Positions 1-25,369 of a DNA stretch of 35,161 bases are shown here, piece by piece. The position numbers were made by a program, and so were the translations under genes. Origin of the DNA: Methanomicrobiales archaeon (GTDB lineage Archaea > Halobacteriota > Methanomicrobia > Methanomicrobiales > JACTUA01); the NCBI GenBank assembly GCA_030019205.1, contig JASEFH010000025.1, positions 1-35,161 on the forward strand. The letters run 5' to 3'. The notes beneath the pieces were generated by a model that saw only the letters and a list, made by a program, of their open reading frames with translations, was not told the DNA's origin and did no database searches. Every line of letters begins with the position of its first letter. The first letter of the stretch is position 1.

Positions 1-8
1 CATTCCTG

Positions 9-63
9 GGGCTCATATACCTGGCCTGTGCCCGCATGATCTGGAGGGTTTTGGGATGACCTC
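9..63 (+). repeat. Left copy of 55-bp imperfect inverted repeat
   Basis: This stretch equals the reverse complement of the last 55 bases (35107-35161) except at two adjacent positions (34-35, gc here against ta there). It contains a Shine-Dalgarno-like ggaggg and the ATG of the short frame that starts at 56. In the right copy the same elements start the coiled-coil gene. It therefore looks like a duplicated gene 5' end and not a transposon terminus. Because it lies at the window edge, an assembly break at a multi-copy sequence could also explain where the window stops. Confidence 0.9.
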
Positions 64-145: not shown

Positions 146-664
146 AGGCGTTTACTTCTGGATTTCTTTGCCCGAGACAGTCAATTTTTTTATAGAGACT
201 CGATCTCGGCAATAGGCCTCCCAGCCGTTCTTGAGATCCGTGATAAGCGTGGAGCTTGCGGTGAGCCATAGAGATCATTCCCATATTCCCTGATCGGTGA
301 CTTCTTTATGAGATACTTTTTCAATCACCGAAAGTTACGGGAGGGGTAGTCCAGGACCTGAAAACCTGAGATCGTTCCTGTCGTACCAGAGGTGGGAAGG
401 GCAATATACCCTTCACGACGATTTGTCAATATCCTATGCATCATCCCGTTCAGGACAGGTGATATTTTAATCTATCGGATATGTCAGGGAAAACCTGACA
501 TTTTTCGTATTTTTAAATCTTTTACAGATAAATTTCCCTTGTCCAAGAGTTCGAACGATATGAAAACTCTCTGGAACGTGTGTTATCCTGAACGACGGGA
601 TGGAAATCTTGCGGTGCGATCAGGAGATCATGCGTAAGAAAATGGAACACGAGGAGTGATCTGT
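146..664. other. Intergenic, no convincing gene
   Basis: Short frames exist on both strands (minus 93-284, plus 392-637), but neither has a recognisable family or clear start signals. AT-rich stretches near 463-472 and 508-520 could be TATA elements for the downstream secreted-protein gene, which would then have a leader of more than 100 bases. The stretch may contain decayed coding sequence linked to the truncated frame at 56. Confidence 0.5.
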
Positions 665-1396
665 TTGAGAAACAAATCGATAGGAGCTGGAATCCTGGCT
701 CTTATTCTTTTGAGCGCTTTGAGTGTTCCGGTATCAGCATACCAGTACTCCATTACAAATGTGGAGCAGTATGACCACTCTGAAGATCTGTACCCTTTCG
801 GAACAGGCGTATCCCATGCAGTGAAAAATCGGTTAAATAACGCAGAATGGTCTCAGAAATTCTACGAAGTAGATTGGAATGTAAATGAATACGATCTCGG
901 TTATTCGCAGTCTGGATACCAAGGGCTGGATGAGGCTGAATTTCACAACCACTTCGGACACGGGATCAACTTGCTAGGAGAAACCCACATAGAGTTTTCG
1001 AATTATCCTTTTGGAGATTTTGATCGAGGAGAAGTGTATAAAAAGTGGGATTATACAGATAAGTGGGTCGTAATCGATGCATGTCACATACTGGCTAACC
1101 TGCAATGGGGTGGTGCACTGGAGTACTCGCATGGAATTTTAGGATTTTCGACGCTCGAAGCAGCGTATGTGGAACTCCCTGACAGGTTCCTGCGTAATTG
1201 CATTGATTACGATCATACTATTGGATACGCATGGCAGCAGGCAACTCAAGAAGTATTTGGCTCGGATGTAACTGCCAGAGTCATATTTGATACCCAAACT
1301 CAACTTTTGAACGACCACTTATCCGGGCAGGGTTATGTAGCACCGAACGAAAATCCGGACGACGACGCAATCTACTACGATAGCTGGGCGTGTTAA
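665..1396 (+). CDS. Secreted DUF6345-like protein with caspase-type His/Cys pair
   Basis: The product is 243 residues long. It has a Sec signal peptide (hydrophobic residues about 7-22, probable cleavage after VPVSA at about 25), so it should act outside the cell. The conserved core has HNHFGHG (His at about 99) followed by VVIDACH (Cys at about 140). This order and setting, His-Gly then Ala-Cys after a hydrophobic strand, matches clan CD cysteine peptidases such as caspases and gingipains. The overall pattern recalls the DUF6345 family. Activity is inferred. I chose TTG 665 because gaggag lies 8 bases upstream; GTG 656 in the same frame sits directly on that site. Lower GC than the bulk of the window. 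The next gene starts 14 bases after its stop, so the two are probably co-transcribed. Confidence 0.72.
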   Translation: MRNKSIGAGILALILLSALSVPVSAYQYSITNVEQYDHSEDLYPFGTGVSHAVKNRLNNAEWSQKFYEVDWNVNEYDLGYSQSGYQGLDEAEFHNHFGHGINLLGETHIEFSNYPFGDFDRGEVYKKWDYTDKWVVIDACHILANLQWGGALEYSHGILGFSTLEAAYVELPDRFLRNCIDYDHTIGYAWQQATQEVFGSDVTARVIFDTQTQLLNDHLSGQGYVAPNENPDDDAIYYDSWAC

Positions 1397-1410
1397 ACGG
1401 AGAGGAGATA

Positions 1411-2169
1411 ATGAAACATACCTGGATCGTATTTGGCACAATTCTTGCCATCCTTGTGGTGGCAATTGCATCGCTCGGAATTATAATCGATGATGGTTCG
1501 AGACCTTACAAGCTTCAATCTCCGTTCAGTAAATTCAACCTGAATACAGAATTTCCTGCATCTCCAGACACAGCCCCGATGTTCAGGGTGATAGAAAAAG
1601 AAGCATTCACCTTTGGTTCGGAGAGATTAATGGCGATCAAACCGAGCATCCCCTCTGAATAGGAGGCCCCGGCGATGGCATTGAAAGCCCTGGAAAAATA
1701 CGGCGGTCTTCCAGTAGATGCGGTTCTCCATAAAGTTGAGCGGGTTCAGATCAACAGGTACAATCTCACAACAGAGACAATCGAAGAACAGTACCCGCAG
1801 TGGACTCTGGTCATATACGAACAACAGCTCCAGGGGATGCCAGTCATCGGTCCGGGTGCTGAGATCTGGATTGCCTTAGGCGAGAATGGATAGCTTCTCC
1901 AGATTGACAAAGTCTGGCGTACTGTAGAATACACTGGAGAAGTTCCGATCATCACCGCAGAGCAGGCCTATGGGAAGCTCAACCGGGGCGAGCTGGTAAC
2001 GAGATACCCGTCACCCCTGGAGGGAATCGTGATATCCGATATCTACCTCGGATATTACGCAGAAAATCGAGACGTCGATCAGGAATTCTTCAAACCGATA
2101 TGGATATTCCATGGAATGGATATACACAACAACACAATCAGGTTGCCCGTGAGTGCAACAATAAGCTGA
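1411..2169 (+). pseudogene. Membrane-anchored protein, one frame with two in-frame amber codons
   Basis: A single frame of 252 codons runs from ATG 1411 (behind ggagaggag) to TGA 2167-2169. It is interrupted only by TAG at 1660-1662 and TAG at 1891-1893. The N-terminus is one membrane segment or signal anchor (residues about 5-27). The rest reads as a continuous soluble domain across both ambers: IALGENG, amber, LLQIDKVWR, and it ends near FFKPIWIFHG. The repeated strand-helix pattern is faintly like PepSY or YycI-type propeptide domains (weak inference). The first amber overlaps a strong aggagg placed 8 bases before ATG 1675, so separate re-initiation is possible there. The second amber has no such site. 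It could be a nonsense-mutated pseudogene, a split gene, or a gene needing UAG read-through (pyrrolysine or suppression). No pyl gene lies in the window. Confidence 0.65.
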
Positions 2170-2190
2170 TCTTTTTCGGGGTTTACAGGA

Positions 2191-2499
2191 ATGAAGGCAT
2201 GGAAAATCGGTGCCATCGTTGGGTGGATCTGGGGTCTGATTGGCGTTTTCATTCTCACCTCAACACCCCACACCGGTATCCTGATTGTAATCGGGGTTTA
2301 TGGGTGCTACATTCCTTTCTTCTTTGCACAGGGTTTGCACTCTCTTCTCAACCTGCTGGTCCCCGGCATCGTCGCTACAAACGACTATATCGTATGGATC
2401 ACGGTTCCTCTGCATGGGGCAGCAATTGTGGCAGCCGTAGGATACATACTTGATAGGGTGAGCCTGAGAGATCCAGCAGACAGGGATCAGACGGGTTGA
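2191..2499 (+). CDS. Small multi-pass membrane protein, unknown
   Basis: A 102-residue protein with about three hydrophobic segments (residues about 5-25, 28-50 and 66-88) and a charged C-terminal tail rich in Asp and Arg. No family recognised. It starts 21 bases after the end of the double-amber frame on the same strand, with only a weak ribosome binding site. It may be the last member of the 665-2499 transcript. Its AT-rich codon use matches the neighbouring genes. Confidence 0.55.
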   Translation: MKAWKIGAIVGWIWGLIGVFILTSTPHTGILIVIGVYGCYIPFFFAQGLHSLLNLLVPGIVATNDYIVWITVPLHGAAIVAAVGYILDRVSLRDPADRDQTG

Positions 2500-2508
2500 T
2501 TCAAAAGA

Positions 2509-2517
2509 ATTTATATG
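2509..2517 (+). promoter_or_regulatory. TATA box for the membrane-tethered regulator
   Basis: The sequence atttatatg is centred about 25 bases before GTG 2538. This is the usual archaeal TATA-to-start distance, so the transcript would begin at or next to the start codon (leaderless). Confidence 0.5.
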
Positions 2518-2537
2518 ATCTTCCATAGAGGATCAGA

Positions 2538-3050
2538 GTGTTGATACCTAAACAGATTATTTTGGATAGGTCGCTACTCAAACTGCTCGCCTCCGACACG
2601 AGAATAGATATCCTGAAAAAATTAGAGAAGCGCAAAATGACCGTGAGCGAACTGTCCAGAGATCTAAACCTCGCAAAAGCCACGGTTCACGAACATCTCG
2701 AGAGGATGAGTGCCGCTGGAATCATTAACTGCATTGACAATGGCCATAAATGGATATATTACGAATTGACACCGGAAGGCCGCTCTCTCGTACGACAACC
2801 GCCATCCATCCGATTCATGTTAGTCCTTTCATTCGCGGCAGCTGCCGCTTGTGTTGCGGGATTTGTCGCAATCATCTACAGTATCTTCTTCCACCCATCG
2901 GACTATCTTCCACCAGCTCAGGGAGGGTTGGGAGTGAATCTTCTCGGACTCGGTCTGTTTTTACTGTCATCAGGAATTATTCTGGTATATTATGCCGTAT
3001 CCAGTTGGAAATGCATTCAGCAATTATCTGAAAAAATCCTGTCAGAATAG
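2538..3050 (+). CDS. ArsR-type winged-helix regulator with two C-terminal membrane segments
   Basis: A 170-residue protein. Residues about 10-85 form a winged helix-turn-helix of the ArsR/HTH_20 kind: LLASDTRIDILKKLEKRKMT, then the recognition region LSRDLNLAKATVHEHLERM and the wing GHKWIYYELTPEG. Two hydrophobic segments follow (about 92-117 and 131-153) with a short outside loop, so the DNA-binding domain is membrane-tethered and cytoplasmic. Such regulators occur widely in methanogens. Its signal is unknown. It follows the 665-2499 cassette but has its own TATA box, so it may control that cassette (inference). The start is GTG 2538 or TTG 2541. It ends with TAG immediately followed by TGA, a tandem stop. 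Confidence 0.8.
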   Translation: MLIPKQIILDRSLLKLLASDTRIDILKKLEKRKMTVSELSRDLNLAKATVHEHLERMSAAGIINCIDNGHKWIYYELTPEGRSLVRQPPSIRFMLVLSFAAAAACVAGFVAIIYSIFFHPSDYLPPAQGGLGVNLLGLGLFLLSSGIILVYYAVSSWKCIQQLSEKILSE

Positions 3051-3890
3051 TGATTTTGGCTGCTGAGGCAAAAAAGAGAGGGATGAGTCCGATGACTTGT
3101 TCGGAATGCCGATTGAGTGCATACGATCGATCTCACGTTCGAGAACCTATCTCGATAATATCTGTGTTGGGTTGGTCTCGACCGCTGCCTGGCGTCTAGA
3201 GCATATCCATCCCTGGCCATCGGAGGGAGGTGTAGGGGGTGTGGTACGGCTCTCTGGTATCTTCGGGGTGGGACCTCGCTTCCTTCTACCCCTTCGTGCG
3301 ATAGAGCGGCCACCAGCATTCGGATCCGAGACGAGAATCGTGCTCCTGCCGTGAGGCAACCGAAAAGGCCAGAGCGGGTCTTTCAGGGACTTCTCCTCTG
3401 GGAAGTTATCCCGGGCGTATCCGCCTATCTCACAGATATACTATTGGTTACAGGGGTTCAGATCGTCCCTTCCCCGCGGCCCGGAACGGGCCGCCTCCTC
3501 CCCTCGCCGAGGGCAGGAGGATAGTGTGATAGGCCTGTATGGAATTGCGAGTATCGCGGAAGACCCCCTCGTCCGTGCGAAGGAGGGTAGATGAAGAACC
3601 GTGCAGTACCAATCTCTGCATTCGAGATCGACTATTCTGGACGGAATCTCCTGTCCTGCAGGGGATCTTTCCCAGACGCGGCGCGAGATGGAGGATACAC
3701 GGGATCTCACCCCGTGCCTGATCGATCCCCAGCCACCTGGCCATTGTATCAGGATCGTAAACCTCCATATGAGGGGATCTATTGGAAAATCGAGCCCTCC
3801 GCGGAGAGCCCTGGAACCGCTTCGAGAGAGTCGTCCGCTAAAGAGTTAGGTTTATTGGCCTGCAATAGAAACGATTAGTTGGACAATTCG
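3051..3890. other. GC-rich gap of 840 bases, no convincing gene
   Basis: Several overlapping frames are open on both strands, for example minus 3448-3768. They are rich in Arg, Pro and Ser and have no recognisable motif. One clean hairpin is visible at 3476-3494 (8-bp GC stem, gaa loop). A TATA-like aggtttattg near 3847-3856 probably serves the following KH-domain gene. GC content rises sharply relative to the genes before it. Confidence 0.6.
3476..3494. other. Perfect 8-bp GC hairpin
   Basis: The sequence gcggcccg, loop gaa, cgggccgc is a perfect inverted repeat. No T-run follows on either strand, so it is not a standard terminator. Its function is unknown. Confidence 0.6.
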
Positions 3891-21429: not shown

Positions 21430-21996
21430 TTGAACAACCGACGTGGCCCAATGCAGTTCGAAACCCGCGTCCCCCTACGCGAGGTGATGCGCTCGCGGGC
21501 TACCACCATCGATGCCGATGCCAGCGTAGCACGAGCTGCCGAGATGATGTGCCGTGATGAAGTCGGCAGCTGTATCGTGCTGCAGCGCAACATGCCAACC
21601 GGTATCGTCACAGAGGAGGATATCAACTGCAAAGTTGTTGCAAAGGACCTGAAGCCGAGCAGCGTTCCCGTGCGCCAGATCATGAGTACTCCTCTGATCA
21701 CGATCGGCGCCGACAAGACCGTAGGGGATGCCGCCCATCTGATGGTCAGCAAACGCGTACGGAGACTCCCCGTCGTAGAGGGGCAGAAGGTCGTGGGGAT
21801 CGTCACCGTTCGGGACATTCTCTCGATTGCCACGGTGATGAACGACATCATGGCCGAGCTCATCACGATCAACCGCGAGGAGCCGGTCGAGATGGGCGTA
21901 TGCAGCCGTTGCGGCATCATGTCCGATGACCTGCGGCGGGTGGACGATCAGCTGATTCTCTGCCCGACGTGCCGCGAAGAGGAGCGCCTCGTATGA
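21430..21996 (+). CDS. Two-CBS-domain protein with C-terminal zinc ribbon
   Basis: A 188-residue protein. Two CBS motifs (about 15-70 and 79-135) form one Bateman module: REVMRSRATTIDADASVARA and RQIMSTPLITIGADKTVGDA are the starts, and GIVTEEDI and GIVTVRDI close each nucleotide site. Residues about 155-182 are a zinc ribbon (CSRCG and LCPTC). Bateman modules bind adenosine-type ligands and regulate partners. The TTG start at 21430 is favoured by ggggtgatc 2 bases upstream; ATG 21451 is possible. First gene of a five-gene CBS operon; its stop overlaps the next ATG (ATGA). Confidence 0.9.
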   Translation: MNNRRGPMQFETRVPLREVMRSRATTIDADASVARAAEMMCRDEVGSCIVLQRNMPTGIVTEEDINCKVVAKDLKPSSVPVRQIMSTPLITIGADKTVGDAAHLMVSKRVRRLPVVEGQKVVGIVTVRDILSIATVMNDIMAELITINREEPVEMGVCSRCGIMSDDLRRVDDQLILCPTCREEERLV

Positions 21997-22793
21997 AAGT
22001 CGCCTGCGACGTCATGATGGAGGTCCCGGTGCTCTCCGAGCACGACCACCTGACGAAGGCCCGACAGATCCTCCGGGACGACGTATTCCGCGAGGCGTAC
22101 GTCAGGGACGACGACAAGAAGAGGCTGATCGGCTATATCGACATATCGGACGTGCTGATCCTGACAACGACCAAATCGAACGTGGAAGTAACCGCATTCA
22201 TGAAGGATCCCCCGATGGTCCATGCGGGGGACAGCCTGGAATCTGTCGCGCGGGAGATTCGAGGCCATATGACCGACAGCGCTGCCGTCGTGGACGAGAA
22301 GGGGTGCATCATGGGCGGGATCCTGCTCTCCGAGATATTCCCGATCCTGATTGCACGCCACGAGTTCCGGGGAACGGTATCCGACTACATGAGCACGGAT
22401 GTCGTGACCTGCCACGCGGACGAGCACGTTCAAAAAGTATATAACCTCATAGTGGCGAGCGGATTCACGGCGTTTCCCGTATTGAAGGACAACGTGCTGG
22501 TCGGCATGATCTCCCGGCGCGATGTCCTGAACGCCGGACGGGTGCGGCGGGCCCTTGAGGGCAATATCAACGTTAAGATCGAGAGAGAGCCGACCAATAC
22601 CCGGGTGGAGAACCTCATGAACACTCCCGTGATCACCGTCGCACCGGACGAATCCATCAGTGCCGCCGCCCGGCTCCTGGTGAAGCACGATATCAGCAGA
22701 ATGCCCGTTGTCCAGGATGGGAGAATCGTCGGAATCGTTGACCGTCACGACATTCTGGAAGGGCTGGTCGTCGAGAGTCCAAAGGAGCATTGA
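21993..22793 (+). CDS. Four-CBS-domain protein (second in operon)
   Basis: A 266-residue protein made almost wholly of four CBS motifs (about 1-55, 60-115, 128-183 and 203-258), so two Bateman modules. The last two are closest to consensus (DYMSTDVVTCHADEHVQKVY; NLMNTPVITVAPDESISAAA; RMPVVQDGRIVGIVDRHDI). The second is divergent (FMKDPPMVHAGDSLESVARE). No catalytic or DNA-binding domain is attached, so it must act through partners. ATG 21993 overlaps the previous stop and has gaagaggag upstream. Confidence 0.88.
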   Translation: MKVACDVMMEVPVLSEHDHLTKARQILRDDVFREAYVRDDDKKRLIGYIDISDVLILTTTKSNVEVTAFMKDPPMVHAGDSLESVAREIRGHMTDSAAVVDEKGCIMGGILLSEIFPILIARHEFRGTVSDYMSTDVVTCHADEHVQKVYNLIVASGFTAFPVLKDNVLVGMISRRDVLNAGRVRRALEGNINVKIEREPTNTRVENLMNTPVITVAPDESISAAARLLVKHDISRMPVVQDGRIVGIVDRHDILEGLVVESPKEH

Positions 22794-22794
22794 G

Positions 22795-23736
22795 ATGCAC
22801 CGCAATAATCGGATGAACAAGCAAGCTGACAGGCTCTTGAAGATGCCGGGCAAACTCGATCGAGGCCCGGTGGACTTCGAAACCCGTATCTCCCGCCAGG
22901 AGGGCGAGATCATGGCGGTCGCCACGAGAGACGTCATCTCCGTGACTCCCACCATTCCCATCCTGGAGGCGGTGAAAACGATGACGGAATGCGGATTTCG
23001 GCGTCTTCCCGTCACGGATGCGGGGACCCGCAGGCTGCGAGGAATCGTGACCGCCGGTGACATCATCGACCTGATGGGCGGGGGGAGCAAGTTCAACCTG
23101 GTGAAAAGGAAGCATGCGGGAAATCTTCTCGCTGCCATCAACGACAGCATCCGGGAGATCATGACCCAGCAGGTGATCACCATCCAGAACGATGCCCGAA
23201 TCGCGGATGCTGTCAGCATCATCATCGAGAAGAAGATCGGGGGGATCCCCATCACCGACGACGAAGGGATCCTCGAGGGCATCGTCACGGAACGGGATGT
23301 GATGCGGATTCTCTGCTCCGAAAGCAGCATGGTGCCCGTCGAGGCGGCAATGAGCCGCAGTCTGCGGGTGACAACGCCGGAGAGCACCATCGGCATGGCG
23401 ACGCGGGAGATGCTGGTGCATAAGTTCCGGCGCCTTCCTGTGGTCGCCGATGGCGTCCTGTTCGGTATCGTGACCAGCTCGGACATCATCCGTTACCTGG
23501 GCAACGGCCAGATCTTCCAGAAGCTGGTTACCGGGGATGTGGCGGAAGTAATGGGACTACCGGTGCGGACTCTGGTGTGCGGGGACCTCCATACCATCGA
23601 GCCGGATCGCACCATCTCGGAAGCCGCATCCGTGATGCTCAGCAGGGGCGTGGGTGCGCTACCGGTCATCGAGGACGCGCGGCTGGTAGGCATCATCACC
23701 GAGCACGATCTGGTGAAGGCGTTTTCCGGGGTGTGA
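22795..23736 (+). CDS. Four-CBS-domain protein (third in operon)
   Basis: A 313-residue protein with a basic N-terminal extension (MHRNNRMNKQADRLLK) and four CBS motifs (about 40-100, 118-172, 182-235 and 250-312). Segments such as REIMTQQVITIQNDARIADA, GGIPITDDEGILEGIVTERD and GALPVIEDARLVGIITEHDL are close to consensus. The ATG lies one base after the previous stop with ggag upstream. The extension might contact nucleic acid or membrane (speculative). Same transcription unit as the other four CBS genes. Confidence 0.88.
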   Translation: MHRNNRMNKQADRLLKMPGKLDRGPVDFETRISRQEGEIMAVATRDVISVTPTIPILEAVKTMTECGFRRLPVTDAGTRRLRGIVTAGDIIDLMGGGSKFNLVKRKHAGNLLAAINDSIREIMTQQVITIQNDARIADAVSIIIEKKIGGIPITDDEGILEGIVTERDVMRILCSESSMVPVEAAMSRSLRVTTPESTIGMATREMLVHKFRRLPVVADGVLFGIVTSSDIIRYLGNGQIFQKLVTGDVAEVMGLPVRTLVCGDLHTIEPDRTISEAASVMLSRGVGALPVIEDARLVGIITEHDLVKAFSGV

Positions 23737-23738
23737 GC

Positions 23739-24596
23739 ATGCAGGCATCGGATGTGATGTCCTCGCCGGTGTATGTGGTATCCCCCCATGAGCCCGTCAG
23801 CCGCGCCCGGAGTCTGATGCTGAAACACCGGATCTCCCGGGTTCCGGTGATGGATGAGGGGCACCTGGTCGGAATCCTGACCAAGAAGGATATTGCCTAC
23901 CGCCTCCGGCAGAGTGAACCCGTCTGGCGCCGCAGACCCATCGATCGGATCCCGGTGGAGATCCTGATGGTCCGGAATCCCATCACCATCGGCCCGAACA
24001 CCCCCATGCAGGAGATTGCGAGGCTGATGCTGAAGGAGGACATCAGCGGGCTGCCGGTCGCGGATGGAGAGACGGTGCTCGGAATCGTTACCAAGTCCGA
24101 TGTGCTGAAGTCGGAGGCGGTACGGAGAATCCCTCTGTCGGTCGGCGATCTGATGACCGACGTGATGACGGTCACCCGCTATCACTCGCTCGATCATGTC
24201 ATCGATCTCATGAGCGAACGGCACGACAAGCTGATCGTGGTGAACGATAACGGATCGATCGCCGGGATCATCACGGAGAGCAATGTGGCCTTCTTCGTCT
24301 TCGTCCAGAACGACCCGGATCGGGTAGAGGCCGGCGTTCCCGCCAAAGAGATCACACTGCTCCGCAAGGCTGTGCCGGGTGGCAGGAAGCAGTTCCGCGA
24401 CGTGATTGAGGTCTCCAGCGTCGCCGAAGACGTGATGTCCCGACCTGTCATCACCCTGCCCGTGAGCGCTCCGCTCTCCGAGGCGGTTCAGCGAATGCAG
24501 CAGCACCATATCACGAGCGTTGTTGCGGTCGGAGAGAACGACGAACTCAGAGGAATTGTGAAACGAGACGATATCATTCGTGAGGTGGCAAAATGA
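23739..24596 (+). CDS. Four-CBS-domain protein (fourth in operon)
   Basis: A 285-residue protein with four CBS motifs (about 1-60, 70-127, 134-190 and 225-283). Examples are SDVMSSPVYVVSPHEPVSRA, ISGLPVADGETVLGIVTKSD and EDVMSRPVITLPVSAPLSEA. A linker of about 35 residues with a basic stretch (LLRKAVPGGRKQFR) separates the third and fourth motifs. ATG 23739 follows the previous stop by two bases. No other domain is present. Confidence 0.88.
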   Translation: MQASDVMSSPVYVVSPHEPVSRARSLMLKHRISRVPVMDEGHLVGILTKKDIAYRLRQSEPVWRRRPIDRIPVEILMVRNPITIGPNTPMQEIARLMLKEDISGLPVADGETVLGIVTKSDVLKSEAVRRIPLSVGDLMTDVMTVTRYHSLDHVIDLMSERHDKLIVVNDNGSIAGIITESNVAFFVFVQNDPDRVEAGVPAKEITLLRKAVPGGRKQFRDVIEVSSVAEDVMSRPVITLPVSAPLSEAVQRMQQHHITSVVAVGENDELRGIVKRDDIIREVAK

Positions 24597-25369
24597 GCGA
24601 AGATGTGCTCATCAGAGATGTGATGTCAAAACCCATAACCATCGCAAAATCGGCATTTGTCACGGAAGCGCTGGACAAGATGCTGGATGGGGGTGTCGAT
24701 CCCCTGATCGTCACCAACAACGGCGACGTCGTGGGAACGATATCCCGCAAGTCCATTGCCCGCAAACTGGGCAGAAGGCAGGCTTCCAACATCGCAGCAA
24801 CATCCATCCACGTGGCAAACAGCGTTGAGCACGACTTCACCTCCGCGTATCCGGACCAGAACATCGACGTGCTGATCCCGCTTCTCCAGGTCTACAAGCT
24901 GGTTGTGGTGCTGGACGAGGAGCACCGCCTGGTGGGGCAGGTGACCGCCGGGGATCTGCTGCGCGTTGTCGAGCCGGTCGGCGAGATCGAGGACGTGATG
25001 GTCCCGGCCTGCGTCATCCAGACCGACGAGCGGGTCGTGCATCTTCGCCGCAGGATGCTCGACGACGGGATCGACAAGTTCGTGGCGGTGGAAGGAGGGG
25101 AACCCATGGGTGTCGTCACGGAGACGGATGTGGCAAACGCCATGCGGGCATTCAAAGAGGTGGTGGAGGAGAAGTACCAGGACCACCGCATCCGCAACCT
25201 GATCGTGCGGGACATCATGAGCACCCCGATCATCTCCGCCGAGAAGAGCAGCAACATCTCCACGATCGTGGAGATGTTGCTCTCCCGCAACATCAGCACC
25301 ATACCCATCACGGAGAACGGGAGAGTCATCGGCATGGTGACGCGCGAGTCTCTCGTGAAAGCTCTTTAA
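24593..25369 (+). CDS. Four-CBS-domain protein (fifth in operon)
   Basis: A 258-residue protein with four CBS motifs (about 1-60, 70-125, 133-190 and 202-258). Examples are DVLIRDVMSKPITIAKSAFV, DVMVPACVIQTDERVVHLRR and RDIMSTPIISAEKSSNISTI. The second motif is degenerate. Its ATG overlaps the stop of the fourth gene (ATGA) and gaggtg lies upstream. It ends the operon; a T7 run follows six bases after its stop. Confidence 0.88.
   Translation: MSEDVLIRDVMSKPITIAKSAFVTEALDKMLDGGVDPLIVTNNGDVVGTISRKSIARKLGRRQASNIAATSIHVANSVEHDFTSAYPDQNIDVLIPLLQVYKLVVVLDEEHRLVGQVTAGDLLRVVEPVGEIEDVMVPACVIQTDERVVHLRRRMLDDGIDKFVAVEGGEPMGVVTETDVANAMRAFKEVVEEKYQDHRIRNLIVRDIMSTPIISAEKSSNISTIVEMLLSRNISTIPITENGRVIGMVTRESLVKAL

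Follow-up and report, generated by a model that had tools for sequence, protein, structure and literature searches.

The gene at positions 1411-2169 (forward strand) of the window, which is the whole 35,161-nucleotide stretch of DNA analysed here and at the same time the whole of contig C25, is in all likelihood a recent pseudogene with two nonsense mutations rather than a sign of an expanded genetic code. This reading is based on homologues which are intact and carry ordinary codons at the positions of the stops, the absence of PylS and MtmB, the use of TAG as a working stop elsewhere in the genome, the location of the gene in an AT-rich accessory island next to the end of an IS element, and the finding that another member of the family is also broken. 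The frame reading, together with a search of the whole genome with the read-through protein, which returned a single copy carrying two inner TAG codons, confirmed the original prediction that the frame is broken by exactly two UAG codons and nothing else: the 250 sense codons and two TAG codons are closed by a terminator TGA at 2167-2169, and no frameshift, TAA or inner TGA was found between this terminator and the ATG. The features discussed below are collected in Table 1.

Table 1. Features in and around the broken gene, with positions in the window
Feature	Position	Strand	Basis or remark
Right end of IS5-type element: last transposase residues FLGLIYLACARMIWRVLG, then GACCTC	1..63	+	15 places in genome
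Intact gene for DUF6345 secreted protein, conserved upstream partner	656..1396	+	True start may be TTG 665
Broken gene (two in-frame TAG codons) for a predicted YycI-like protein with a membrane anchor	1411..2169	+	Frame reading, homologues, fold model
First in-frame TAG, residue 84	1660..1662	+	Homologues variable, mostly polar/small (E/D/Q/S/A/T/G)
AGGAGG, Shine-Dalgarno-like, shares last two bases of first TAG	1661..1666	+	8 nt before ATG 1675
Second in-frame TAG, residue 161, beta-turn motif G-E-N-G-E	1891..1893	+	Homologues nearly always Glu (some Lys/Asp/Thr)
Intact gene for 102-aa membrane protein, conserved downstream partner	2191..2499	+	Two relatives
ArsR-type winged-helix regulator, two apparent membrane segments	2538..3050	+	Homologues beside cassette in three relatives

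Homologues of the read-through protein were found in 69 of the 232 genomes of the order (Methanomicrobiales), the best of them at 52% and 48% identity. The best two and most of the other close homologues are uninterrupted and cover both TAG sites, which shows the frame to be more than chance and agrees with the earlier claim that continuous protein reads on both sides of each amber codon. The homologue alignment showed sense codons at both sites in all homologues aligned there, for example GAG at both sites in L007, and CAG at the first and AAG at the second site in L009 and L010, each one substitution away from TAG; the stop mutation of Glu, Gln or Lys codons, which had been among the options put forward, is thus supported by the presence of such codons in the homologues. 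The possibility that the homologues are separate short proteins had been raised as an observation that would count against the prediction, and no close homologue was found to be split at either site. Among the matches listed, one other carries an inner stop (G165:C15, an inner TGA), and an inner TAG was found in none of the other matches listed from the 232 genomes. The gene was not found in any of the 10 other genomes of the window's own family, and neither the broken protein nor the DUF6345 protein returned a relative in scans of genome contigs. A viral origin is unsupported, with phage and viral scans likewise giving no relative.

The share of TAG among the single substitutions which would give a stop in this sequence is 42-48%, and the probability that two random nonsense changes are both to TAG is 0.18-0.23, so that the double TAG is not remarkable. 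The broken frame contains no indels, keeps 16 of the 16 columns that are invariant in the other homologues, and has lost 1 of the 26 near-invariant columns. The terminal branch of the broken gene was 0.63 in comparison to 0.61 and 0.71 for its neighbours, and the identity to homologues, taken relative to the adjacent DUF6345 gene, was not clearly below that of intact relative pairs. As the constrained residues are intact, the inactivation, if real, would appear to be recent. The undecayed frame outside the two TAG codons would fit such a recent loss but would equally fit a protein which is still being made. By the proposed course of events, an accessory and probably laterally acquired YycI-like gene would have been hit by two nonsense mutations, each a single-base change to TAG. 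Ribosomes would then stop at the first TAG and leave an 83-residue N-terminal stub with the membrane anchor and first strands, at most accompanied by a re-initiated 72-residue piece running from ATG 1675 to the second TAG. The last 91 residues of the protein would remain untranslated, and we infer that the cell produces no protein of full length.

TAG is a normal stop in this organism. The usage of stop codons was determined in a sample of 575 kb, consisting of 27 sampled stretches and the window, with 432 predicted genes, of which 260 are terminated by TGA, 106 by TAG and 66 by TAA. Coding-like in-frame extensions were observed past 11 of 103 TAG, 24 of 255 TGA and 9 of 60 TAA codons, and these rates are alike, which indicates no excess of coding-like frames past TAG. 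Pfam scans of 7 of the 11 coding-like TAG cases found no domain spanning the TAG in any of them. In addition, the gene for ribosomal protein L2 terminates at a TAG with S19 directly after it, and the gene for a V-ATPase G-type subunit terminates at a TAG followed by subunit I, from which it follows that TAG terminates essential genes. A genome-wide reassignment of amber is rejected by the extension statistics, the Pfam scans and the L2/S19 boundary, and the option of amber suppression, in its genome-wide form, is not supported given that TAG ends 106 of the 432 sampled genes.

The insertion of pyrrolysine at one or both UAG codons, another option of the original prediction, is extremely improbable. 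UAG is the codon of pyrrolysine and the organism is archaeal, but PylS, MtmB and a CUA tRNA were all undetected in a genome (2.73 Mb in 73 contigs) that is 99.6% complete. The search with the PylS model (TIGR02367), for which Methanosarcina acetivorans served as the positive control and scored positive, gave only sub-cut-off matches in this genome (maximum 29.9 bits in comparison to a cut-off of 178.15), and none of the 232 genomes of the order had a match above the curated cut-off. No CUA anticodon occurs among the 43 tRNA genes detected, a list from which a few of the expected tRNAs, such as that for Trp, are missing and which comes from a scan that is not exhaustive; one tRNA left untyped by ARAGORN appears by eye to be an intron-bearing CAT tRNA. 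Because the tRNA list is incomplete, it is the PylS result which carries the argument against pyrrolysine. The broken protein, moreover, is not a methylamine methyltransferase, and the first site is variable among the homologues. Pyrrolysine is therefore close to refuted for this gene and, as regards PylS, across the 232 genomes of the order.

Three further explanations would leave the gene or parts of it in use. An assembly or base-calling error, by which one or both TAG codons would not exist in the organism and the gene would be intact, is unlikely: the draft state of the genome, the distance of 1.35 kb between the start of the gene and a contig end bounded by a repeat, and the otherwise perfectly kept frame speak for it, but two independent substitution errors would be improbable within 759 bases whose sequence is otherwise good, the indels which are the common assembly errors do not occur in the frame, and repeat collapse is no explanation for a single-copy gene. 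It is still less likely that the gene is split and useful as pieces, with the first TAG terminating one peptide and a second peptide re-initiating at ATG 1675. The predicted aggagg and ATG after the first amber are indeed present at a suitable place (Table 1), but the second piece would break off inside a predicted domain on reaching the next TAG, we saw no start with a Shine-Dalgarno-like sequence shortly downstream of the second TAG, and the unbroken close homologues argue against a split; we consider it fair, as had been claimed, that re-initiation cannot explain the second amber, at which the re-initiated piece ends. Read-through or suppression of amber, whether by a leaky stop, a suppressor tRNA that escaped detection or a recoding element that was not recognised, would give a full-length protein and is very improbable. 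It would agree with the constraint that persists to either side of each stop and with the report of in-frame stops under purifying selection in bacteria (PMC7918605), and a perfect inverted repeat of 9 bp, CTTCTCCAG / CTGGAGAAG (1894-1902 and 1934-1942), starts directly after the second TAG. This hairpin, however, is missing from all ten homologues checked, for which reason it was rejected as evidence of recoding; among random coding windows about 0.9% contain an inverted repeat this long, and no exceptional RNA structure was found after the first TAG. The frequent use of TAG as an ordinary stop, including that of L2 directly before S19, and the failure to find a CUA tRNA also count against read-through. 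The local form of such recoding, in which both ambers would be efficiently read through without pyrrolysine, perhaps aided by the hairpin, and UAG would otherwise be a normal stop, deserves hardly any credence.

The read-through sequence was modelled by AlphaFold together with 19 homologues, and the results suggest that the broken gene encoded a membrane-anchored, YycI-like extracytoplasmic protein with tandem domains. The model (mean pLDDT 89) has a membrane helix at residues 2-22 followed by tandem alpha/beta domains; helix 86-97 follows closely on the first TAG and strand 162-180 on the second. The top fold match was YycI from Bacillus (2o3o; E 6e-7, probability 1.00, TM 0.43-0.48), chains of which made up the top 11 PDB matches, in comparison to much weaker matches for thermolysin-type propeptides. 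The window's own broken protein gave no Pfam match, while the intact homologue L006 scored 30.0 bits for Pfam YycI, just above the cut-off of 29.7, and a fused homologue in L110 scored 23.0 bits. In two relatives, L110 (1913-6022) and L111 (6772-10665), proteins of approximately 1300-1370 residues combine the YycI-like domain with 10-11 PKD repeats.

The broken YycI-like gene lies between a DUF6345 gene and the gene for a small membrane protein, and the three form a cassette (656-3050 including the regulator close by) of patchy distribution in these archaea. Three relatives, L105, L106 and L107, retain the pairing with the DUF6345 gene, and two of them, L106 and L107, also have the gene for the small membrane protein; an ArsR-like regulator is encoded nearby in L106, L107 and L108. 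DUF6345 was not mentioned in the papers searched, in which the cassette has no described function; the gene content suggests a cell-surface system, and the PKD fusions point the same way. The cassette has a GC content of 43-50% in comparison to 63.6% for the genome, and both contig ends (1-63 and 35107-35161) are the right end of one IS5-type element. It is probably an accessory, laterally acquired AT-rich island, and accessory islands are common places for gene loss. The transposase copy in L119 carries several in-frame stops and looks decayed. About 0.8 kb between the cassette and a KH-domain-like gene at 3879 (3051-3878) holds no convincing gene by eye and possibly consists of remnants of lost genes. 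Elsewhere in the window, five consecutive long open frames on the same strand (21430-25369) have translations that by eye resemble CBS-domain proteins, and no Rfam family was matched in the window. As a question about the genetic code the case carries little weight, with an ordinary result; a minor positive result is the recognition of a conserved, patchy cassette whose YycI-like member is broken in this genome.

The genes for MtmB, MtbB and MttB, the carriers of pyrrolysine, likewise are archaeal genes with an in-frame TAG in a frame which is otherwise intact. However, they have a single conserved active-site UAG that is common to their homologues, whereas the broken gene has two UAG codons that occur in no listed homologue, encodes an unrelated protein and belongs to a genome in which neither PylS nor MtmB was detected. 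The broken gene shares with nonsense-type prokaryotic pseudogenes the intact homologues, the stops one substitution from sense codons and the position of an accessory gene beside an IS element, and differs from them in that TAG is the stop at both lesions and constraint on the rest of the frame is still complete. In Bacillus, the sensor kinase WalK/YycG is regulated by the membrane-anchored protein YycI (PF09648; PDB 2o3o). One N-terminal membrane helix followed by tandem extracytoplasmic alpha/beta domains is common to YycI and the predicted protein, although the identity between them is approximately 13% and the TM-score is modest; YycI has YycH and WalK as partners, neither of which was seen among the immediate neighbours here, where the partner is the DUF6345 protein.
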